Origin: Arcobacter sp. CECT 8985
GTDB lineage: Bacteria > Campylobacterota > Campylobacteria > Campylobacterales > Arcobacteraceae
Length of the DNA: 62,044 nucleotides
NCBI RefSeq assembly: GCF_004116495.1
Contig: NZ_PDKC01000015.1
Location: forward strand, 1-62,044
Direction: 5' to 3'
Below are positions 24,701 through 26,034 of the stretch, one piece after another. The notes under the pieces are model-generated. The model was not told the DNA's origin, searched no databases, and saw nothing but the letters and a program-made list of their open reading frames with translations. How positions within the stretch are numbered: the stretch's first letter is position 1; the number at the start of each line of letters is the position of its first letter. Made by a program: the position numbers and the translations under genes.

Positions 24701-25036
24701 TTAAATTTTCTTTAATTTATCTTGCACAAAATCACTATATAATCCTAATACTTTTTTTCTTTTTTCTTCAGTAAAAATAGAGATTCCAACATTTTTTAAT
24801 TTCTTTTCCAATTGATTATCAATATGAGGAACAATTAAAACATTAAAATTATTTGATTTAAATAGTTTAACAATTTCATCTTCTACATTTTCATGTATTC
24901 TATTTTTCATTAATTCTACTGAACTAATAGTTTGTCCACTAAGATTTAATACAGTAAAGTAATTAGCTTCTTTTACATCTGGAGCAACATTTGACATATA
25001 ACTTAGATTTTCTACGGTAGGAAAAACAATTCTCAT
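24701..25036 (-). CDS. NifX/NifB-family (dinitrogenase iron-molybdenum cofactor-like) protein
   Basis: A 111-residue protein with the pattern of the PF02579 family: an N-terminal strand (MRIVFPTVEN), a second strand (YFTVLNLSGQTI), and a C-terminal half with NFNVLIVPHID and VGISIF. Known members bind or carry Fe-Mo cofactor precursors, but stand-alone copies in non-fixing bacteria have no settled function. It is divergent from the UPF0251 gene at 25444, a family often found next to NifX-like genes. A ribosome binding site AAAGG precedes the ATG. I recognise the family only from pattern and context. Confidence 0.6.
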   Translation of the reverse strand: MRIVFPTVENLSYMSNVAPDVKEANYFTVLNLSGQTISSVELMKNRIHENVEDEIVKLFKSNNFNVLIVPHIDNQLEKKLKNVGISIFTEEKRKKVLGLYSDFVQDKLKKI

Positions 25037-25134
25037 TTTTGAGCCTTTAATAATTTGATAATTTTATAAAAGGATTTTGTAAAAACTTAATACTTTTTAA
25101 TATCTTTTAAAAAAGTTTTTACAAAATTAATGGT

Positions 25135-25140
25135 TATAAT
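25135..25140 (+). promoter_or_regulatory. TATAAT box upstream of the structured intergenic region
   Basis: A perfect -10 box is followed seven bases later by the first helix of the candidate RNA. No -35 consensus is obvious, as usual in this phylum. Confidence 0.5.
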
Positions 25141-25146
25141 TTAGAT

Positions 25147-25380
25147 TGACCAAGAGAGGAGTGTTATTTGTATGTTAGGCTAGACAACTAAACAAAATGA
25201 CCAATCTAATTATATTTCTAATTATATATTCTAACAATCTTAACTCATATTTAAACTAAGAATAATTTGAGAGAGCGGGTTCACTTAGTTTTTATTATTA
25301 AATTCACAAAAATTTTCGAGTTAAGCCTTGTGAACATATGACCGTATAATAACATTAATTCGGTCATATGTCAAGTATAT
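25147..25380 (+). ncRNA. Candidate structured RNA or long regulatory leader of the UPF0251 gene
   Basis: Five helices of at least seven perfect pairs can be drawn: P1 25141-25148 with 25202-25209; P2 25239-25246 with 25318-25325; P3 25253-25260 with 25284-25291; P4 25303-25309 with 25328-25334; P5 25335-25344 with 25361-25370. The 3' strand of P2 lies in the loop of P4, so P2 and P4 can form a pseudoknot, and P4 and P5 abut. P1 overlaps the expected transcription start by a few bases. There is no open frame and no terminator T-run, so it is either a roughly 300-base 5' leader or an independent RNA. I see no tmRNA, RNase P, SRP or 6S signature. The call rests on pairing alone; short AT-rich helices also occur by chance. 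Confidence 0.4.
25334..25371 (+). promoter_or_regulatory. 11-bp inverted repeat enclosing a TATAAT box upstream of UPF0251 gene
   Basis: Arms 25334-25344 and 25361-25371 (ACATATGACCG and its complement) are perfectly matched, and the 16-base loop begins with TATAAT (25345-25350). As DNA this looks like an operator with a promoter between its half-sites; as RNA it is helix P5 of the candidate structure. A second -10-like box, TATGAT, lies at 25401-25406, closer to the gene. Confidence 0.5.
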
Positions 25381-25443
25381 TTCTACATTTTTAACAAAAT
25401 TATGATAAAATCTCTAATTAATAATTTTAAGGAATTAAATTAT

Positions 25444-26034
25444 ATGCCACGAGAAAAACTAGAAAGAAAACTAAATTTAAAGCCAGTAAGTAAATACTTT
25501 GGACCTAAAGATATAAAAGCTAGTGAAGACGTTGTTTTACTTCATGAAGAACTAGAAGCTATACACTTGATGGATTCATTTTGTATGTATCAAGAAGATG
25601 CTGCTAAAAAAATGAATGTTTCAAGAGCAACTTTTGCTAGAATCATAAAAAGTGCAAGAAAAAAGATATCACTTGCTTTGATTACAGGAAAAAATATAAA
25701 AGTACATGAAGTTAAAAATGAATTTAGAATAGCTATTTGTTCTAATAAGCAAGATGAACTAGTATACGCTGAGCCAGATGCTGAGTATATCTGGATTATT
25801 CTTATAAAAGATTATAAACTTGCTTCACAAAGTTGTATAAAAAACCCAATGTACAAAAATGAAAATGAAGCTACATGTAATGTTTTACCTGATGTGTTAT
25901 ATGACTACAAAGTAAACTATTTTATGTTAAATGACATTGATTATGATCTAAAAATATCATTAATTGCAAAAGGGATTTATCCTATGTTAAAAGAAAAGAT
26001 TGAATTAGATTCATTAGTAGATATTTTTCAATAG
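25444..26034 (+). CDS. UPF0251 (DUF134) DNA-binding protein with NifX-like C-terminal domain
   Basis: Residues 1-95 match the UPF0251 family of predicted DNA-binding proteins: MPREKLERKL at the start and a sigma-factor-like helix-turn-helix (YQEDAAKKMNVSRATFARII). The remaining 100 residues (from FRIAICSNK) have the strand pattern of a divergent NifX-type domain. I start it at the ATG at 25444, preceded by AAGGA; an ATG 42 bases upstream lies inside a -10-like box and would add a non-family tail. The role is unknown. Its position opposite a NifX-like gene, behind a long leader, suggests a regulator sensing a metal or cofactor, which is inference. Confidence 0.75.
   Translation: MPREKLERKLNLKPVSKYFGPKDIKASEDVVLLHEELEAIHLMDSFCMYQEDAAKKMNVSRATFARIIKSARKKISLALITGKNIKVHEVKNEFRIAICSNKQDELVYAEPDAEYIWIILIKDYKLASQSCIKNPMYKNENEATCNVLPDVLYDYKVNYFMLNDIDYDLKISLIAKGIYPMLKEKIELDSLVDIFQ

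Follow-up and report, generated by a model that had tools for sequence, protein, structure and literature searches.

A probable DUF134-controlled small RNA on the minus strand beside a NifX-like gene in Arcobacter-type bacteria

In sparing systems of the RyhB type, a repressor that senses the state of the cell controls an RNA that lowers metabolic enzymes. Among described bacterial small RNAs, the Neisseria molecules NgncR_162 and NgncR_163 are the same as NmsRA and NmsRB. The targets of this sibling pair, according to one account, include the prpC, prpB and gltA mRNAs (PMC9973317), and, by the title of a second paper, Neisseria has Hfq (PMC5458458). Within the Campylobacterota, the small RNA RepG of Helicobacter pylori uses a C/U-rich loop to pair with the leader of an mRNA (PMC8295292).

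Here we describe a locus of Arcobacter sp. CECT 8985, within a contig of 62,044 nucleotides that was analysed as a whole (the window), whose minus strand, judged by sequence, probably encodes a trans-acting small regulatory RNA of ~265 nt controlled by a DUF134 protein. The likeness to RyhB-type sparing RNAs is that of a repressor-controlled RNA that would, as we propose, lower metabolic enzymes, with DUF134 as the regulator instead. Like the Neisseria pair, the corresponding RNA of a related genus group (g19, Halarcobacter-type, 16 genomes) has prpC as its predicted target; the Neisseria RNAs belong to another phylum and come as two siblings, whereas no second sibling was seen here, and the two systems are likened by their targets, not by sequence or promoter. 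The present RNA comes from the same phylum as RepG and, as proposed, would share with it a C/U-rich loop directed at an mRNA leader, but RepG occupies a different locus, its target is tlpB and its pairing loop is the loop of a terminator, and here no such terminator was found. Among the paper titles listed for DUF134 or for UPF0251 regulators, none was about the function of the protein, and hardly any literature on small RNAs of the Arcobacter group was found, with Malaciobacter titles sampled in part.

The proposed RNA lies between a NifX-like gene and a divergent DUF134 gene (Table 1). DUF134 was detected in 49 of the 104 genomes of the family, and the interval between the two genes is conserved in all six genomes of the window's genus, Malaciobacter (g1). 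As the first-pass annotation of this DNA had held, the interval is non-coding, the open reading frames of at least 20 aa in it being 20–28 aa long, the 5′ end of DUF134 aside, and it bears no known RNA signature: Rfam 15 gave no match in the window, either at the gathering threshold or, in the region itself, at E values up to 10. The same search on eight related loci at E up to 5 returned five hits, all far below their own gathering scores. No relative was found among viral contigs, and a plasmid search gave no match. Regions with the same position and promoter are present in g1 (6 genomes), g19 (16), g14 (3), g15 (3) and g10 (1), the RNA of g14 being deduced solely from promoter, position and 3′ hairpin.

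Table 1. Window coordinates of the proposed RNA, its parts, its control elements and the flanking genes.
Feature	Position	Strand	Remarks
NifX-like gene, Nitro_FeMo-Co domain	24704..25036	-	PF02579 25.2 bits, just under the cut-off of 26.3; downstream of the RNA
Proposed small RNA	25075..25339	-	both ends predicted; interval conserved in 6/6 genus members
3′ hairpin	25075..25126	-	arms UUUUGUAAAAACUU 25126-25113 / AAGUUUUUACAAAA 25088-25075
Core domain	25141..25209	-	P1 25209-25199/25151-25141; P2 25198-25192/25171-25166; P3 25191-25188/25178-25175
Core CU-rich bulge AACACUCCUCUCUU	25165-25152	-	
Core apical loop UUGUCUAGC	25187-25179	-	part of the P3 hairpin
5′ domain	25239..25334	-	first hairpin 25334-25328/25309-25303; loop helix 25325-25318/25246-25239 (possible pseudoknot); second hairpin 25290-25284/25260-25254
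Putative DUF134 operator	25331..25374	.	inverted repeats TGACATATG.. / ..TCATATGTTCA flank the promoter
Sigma70-type promoter	25346..25374	-	-35 TTGACA 25374-25369; 17-nt spacer; extended -10 TATTAT 25351-25346
DUF134/UPF0251 DNA-binding protein gene	25444..26031	+	PF02001 61.3 bits vs Pfam gathering cut-off 27; divergent from the RNA; proposed repressor of the RNA promoter

The first-pass annotation took the interval for an undescribed structured RNA, either a leader of the UPF0251 gene, perhaps a cofactor riboswitch, or an independent small RNA. A structured RNA is indeed likely, and three kinds of evidence suggest that it is likely to be read from the minus strand, opposite to that gene. 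First, in g19, where the locus holds an alignable RNA, the helices that RNAalifold places on both strands contain 27 G-U against 2 A-C cells when read as minus, in 13 pairs and 1 pair and not as independent events; read as plus, these shared helices would carry 27 A-C mismatches and 2 G-U pairs. The union of the pairs from both strands gives 62 G-U against 58 A-C, pairs predicted on one strand only necessarily favouring that strand, in g1 as in g19. Second, compensatory changes were found in homologous regions, where the first-pass annotation had suggested looking for covariation: a 22-pair helix of the g19 RNA (15 distinct rows) has 96.4% of its cells paired and six pairs changed on both sides, with a covariation score reached by none of 500 shuffles and a number of further pair types reached by 33 of 500. 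Third, a helix set of the g1 RNA, P1–P2–P3, which we named on the minus strand, contains 13 G-U cells, no A-C cells and two other mismatches. For g1, RNAalifold itself is undecided, with energies of −61.7 for minus and −62.8 for plus, 1 G-U against 0 A-C among shared pairs and 33 against 30 in the union; since covariation in g1 is also modest, the strand call rests mainly on g19. The fold of the minus strand over 25070–25339 (z −3.06, with none of 200 shuffles as good) is accompanied by an ordinary one of the plus strand over 25140–25443 (z −0.78, 22 of 100 shuffles as good), a comparison that alone does not decide the strand because the two spans differ.

This strand assignment runs opposite to a leader of the UPF0251 gene and takes away the basis for a cofactor riboswitch of that gene, the RNA probably not being on its sense strand; a plus-strand riboswitch was set aside on the strand evidence, the g1 RNAalifold energies alone being undecided. 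The broader alternative, a plus-strand leader or riboswitch of DUF134 or else a plus-strand RNA overlapping the minus one, is very improbable. It would agree with the position of the interval upstream of DUF134 in the RNA-bearing genera, with the slightly better plus-strand energy in g1 and with the TATAAT at 25135–25140, proposed as a promoter in the first-pass annotation and kept in six of six g1 genomes; in g19, of 15 sequences checked (L049 left out), only one has a TATAAT at most 60 nt from the equivalent place, and the A-C mismatches and the ordinary plus-strand fold also speak against it. The −10-like box on the plus strand (25131–25140, six of six g1 genomes) could drive an antisense transcript.

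The favoured minus-strand RNA has, by sequence, a promoter of its own. That of the window is an 11/12 match to sigma70, with TG preceding the −10, and that of a g19 locus (L041) is a 12/12 match; a start of the RNA near 25339 is predicted from the window promoter. The sequence TTGACATATG of the −35 region was present in all 28 sequences compared, which come from five genera, and among these same 28 the downstream promoter/repeat half is altered in two (L039 and L061). At L039 (G002, in g1), the stretch upstream of the RNA has lost or rearranged its −10 region and second repeat half.

Inverted GAACATATG repeats frame this promoter, and the inverted repeat ACATATGACCG / CGGTCATATGT (~25336–25371) makes more sense as a DNA operator flanking it than as an RNA helix. 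In the organism's own genome GAACATATGNC has six matches, of which one is at the RNA locus, two flank the promoter in front of a small gene and cydA, and three are single matches elsewhere. The product of cydA matches cytochrome bd models of NCBIfam with scores below their cut-offs, and the small gene beside it is presumably DUF4492. In other genera, the same repeats stand between DUF134 and either small/cydA-type genes or a NifX-like gene. Because the repeats recur beside DUF134 genes at the RNA, cydA and other-genus loci, we infer that DUF134 protein binds them as a repressor. The cydA site of the organism's own genome is at L081 (~919–970), where these inverted repeats stand between a second DUF134 gene and, divergent from it, the small gene followed by cydA; L080 (G003) holds a third, short DUF134-like gene with TGAACATATG repeats of its own.

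Within the RNA, the helices listed in the first-pass annotation can be placed as proposed. In the 5′ domain, the helix of the second hairpin never varies in g1, and its invariant loop contains CCCGCUCUCUC. The first hairpin, aligned in five of the six g1 genomes (L039 was left out, as its 5′ end is deleted), shows one compensatory pair, C-G in three genomes and U-A in two, with a covariation score reached by 56 of 500 shuffles. Both strands of the loop helix are present in all six genomes, and L040 has two G-U pairs in it; the first strand of L039 is located within what remains of the promoter there and so would lie outside the transcript. The pseudoknot that this helix would form with the first hairpin, part of the first-pass annotation, is therefore kept in sequence and possible, but with the hairpin covariation at this level it is not proven. 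In the core domain, 98.4% of the 129 cells of P1–P2–P3 are paired and two pairs are changed on both sides, the covariation being modest (40 of 500 shuffles as high). The loops UUGUCUAGC and CACUCCUC are candidate pairing sites of the window RNA.

The RNA ends, by prediction, in an AU-rich 3′ hairpin whose exact pattern occurs at one place each in 11 of the 104 family genomes, and in 10 of these 11 that place is the RNA locus. Its arms co-vary in L062 and L060, and a run of at least four U follows soon after it in 11 of the 12 loci compared (the exception is L061); the pattern was not found in g19. This hairpin is possibly a weak terminator or a stabilising end. The palindrome TGTAAAAAC...GTTTTTACA was ruled out as a general operator, since 10 of the 11 genomes with the exact pattern have it here; in the eleventh, G113, it is an AU hairpin between other genes.

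We give least credence to the reading that only the operator and promoter are functional and that the remainder is a conserved spacer with chance helices. Such helices are abundant in AT-rich DNA, and by shuffles the covariation of the g1 core and first hairpin is weak; a spacer would leave aside the invariant loops, the covariation in g19, the locus-specific 3′ hairpin and the complementarity to prpC described below.

A structured 5′ UTR or riboswitch acting in cis on the NifX-like gene is another minus-strand alternative, and an unlikely one. The gene adjoins the region, next on the same strand, in g1 (6), g19 (16) and g10 (1). A pattern scan of the minus strand in the window and in the g19 locus L041 found no terminator, neither between RNA and nifX nor elsewhere in what was scanned, so read-through into nifX is possible; the leader would then be ~300 nt. 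Set against this, g14 and g15 (three genomes each) keep the promoter and intergenic region although no nifX match was found beside them there, the two g9 genomes have nifX and the repeats with a gap of merely ~190–240 nt, and the g19 loop matches a distant mRNA.

The grounds for regarding the g1 and g19 RNAs as one kind are position, promoter, strand and layout; sequence gives none. A model of the g19 RNA, R1, matches 16 of the 104 genomes, all of them g19. When 12 loci were searched permissively with R1, nothing convincing turned up where the RNA would be expected in g1, g14, g15 or g10, and the best hit overall, with an E value of 0.033, fell on the operator repeats of L064; as R1 misses g1 too, failure to match R1 is poor evidence that the RNA is absent. 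Compared with shuffles, the g1 core is similar to the cores of g15 (0 of 300 shuffles) and g10 (5 of 300), whereas its resemblance to the g19 core is at the level of shuffles (177 of 300). Because of this lack of sequence similarity, the g19 target described next must not be carried over to the window RNA.

The complement of the invariant g19 loop was searched for and led to prpC leaders, after which PrpC was searched over the 104 genomes and the leaders were read. In g19 the RNA segment CUUUUCCCUAG(U/A) finds its complement in the leader of prpC, the gene for 2-methylcitrate synthase, sometimes covering the Shine-Dalgarno site. Between each g19 RNA and its own prpC leader, the longest complementary run is 12–13 pairs in 15 of the 16 genomes and 9 in G104; in G102, G099, G111 and G112 this longest run is an A-rich GAAAAAAAGTAA, adjoining CTAGGG in the same register. 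CTAGGG stands 14–28 nt before the prpC ATG in 15 of the 16 g19 genomes, in leaders that are on average 51% identical, and in none of the 20 prpC leaders taken as controls from g6, g11 and g12. Those control genera have no R1 match, and the DUF134 loci read there face cydA-type genes, cydA being named by reading. Nor was CTAGGG found in the prpC leaders of g14 (3), g15 (3) or g10 (1), and in g1 it occurs in one of six. That g1 case, L230 (G001), has ACTAGGGAAAAAGG before prpC while its own RNA is without CCCUAG; the leader was perhaps inherited or transferred.

Duplex energies, computed without accessibility, place prpC first among 43 leaders, the others being those of window genes, in 11 g19 genomes, second in four and seventh in one, and first among 21 when the others are control prpC leaders, in 16 of 16 genomes; some window-gene leaders form strong chance duplexes with the g19 segment, the lowest at −25.6. 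Both types of prpC protein, the second of them putative, carry the site in g19. In L221 and L245 the first type scores above the cut-off of NCBIfam for a 2-methylcitrate synthase, and prpB lies upstream of prpC by reading. Conserved complementarity to an mRNA leader is hence present in g19, with prpC, and was not found in the window's genus. With its probable reading from the opposite strand, a promoter apparently controlled by DUF134 and the match of the g19 loop to prpC mRNA, the structured RNA is less likely to be a riboswitch than a small regulatory RNA, in favour of the independent RNA that the first-pass annotation had offered as one of its two options.

In the window's genus, prpC leaders gave ordinary duplex energies with their own RNA, none of which stands out; gltA leaders, for which five of six fetched regions gave a start, showed no target site; and pattern searches in the six g1 genomes found no conserved leader site for the window RNA. 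With at most one mismatch, AAGAGAGGAGTG has 56 matches in the six genomes against 22 in the reversed control, and TTGAGAGAGCGGGTTC, with at most three, has 29. Among the 50 of these 85 matches that were read, there was one leader site in the organism's own genome (L111), before a gene that we take to be DUF485-like. At L111, the ribosome-binding region of that gene is AAAAGAGGAGTG, which nearly matches the complement of the CU-rich bulge. Repeated in-frame matches in a ribH-like gene were set aside as conserved coding sequence. For TAGGCTAGACAA, at most one mismatch gave 28 matches, six being the RNA locus itself; the other 22, all read, include sites in the final codons ahead of a hemN-like gene (in G000 and G003) and others within the opening codons of a thiC-like gene (in G004 and G005), each in two of the six genomes and with gene names by reading. 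When whole prp loci were scanned, the best core duplex fell in the coding end of prpB, at −30.1 in G004 and −28.7 in G005, energies reached by 3 and 1 of 30 shuffled cores, respectively; G000 (12 of 30) and G001 (21 of 30) did no better than shuffled cores. A sequence near position 1400 of the sense strand at the prpB end, TATGTTAGG (L231 and L240, from G004 and G005), fits a window-type core and does not occur in the prp loci of either G000 or G001.

In g19, TGACTAGGGAAAAGA with at most two mismatches found prpC in at least three genomes among the matches listed. The site GGATTAGGGAAAAGATG, where a purA-like gene (by reading) begins, also fits the g19 loop in G101, G036 and G105 (L213, L214 and L215), again at least three genomes among the matches listed, and this second repeated site means that prpC may not be the sole target. 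The exact 10-mer CTAGGGAAAA has 134 matches in g19 against 41 in the reversed control; 16 of the 134 belong to the RNA and 14 precede prpC, the 10-mer being inexact in G102 and G104. Of the 109 places read, some of them RNA or prpC, 58 fall in sense frames, 16 precede a start and 35 do neither. Five of the 16 places before a start are prpC and three (L295, L351 and L355) share one coding-like context, with none of the rest seen repeated.

In the mechanism that we propose, DUF134 protein would bind the GAACATATG repeats around the promoter and repress the RNA, presumably in step with the cydAB (cytochrome bd) operon, which has the same kind of site and a DUF134 paralogue. Once repression is lifted, the RNA would be made, and its helices would present invariant C/U-rich single-stranded segments for pairing with mRNA leaders. 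In g19, CUUUUCCCUAG(U/A) would then pair with the prpC leader, a complementarity supported by sequence, and would likely lower prpC translation. More tentatively, Arcobacter-type DUF134 proteins may be repressors through which cytochrome bd is switched on jointly with a small RNA turning down the methylcitrate cycle, with locus, promoter and layout kept across genera while the pairing loop and its target are exchanged. The GAACATATG-type repeat common to the cydA promoter and the RNA proposes an operator and a small regulon for DUF134. If true, the orphan DUF134 family would gain a regulon, and the predicted prpC target would link respiration and propionate use.
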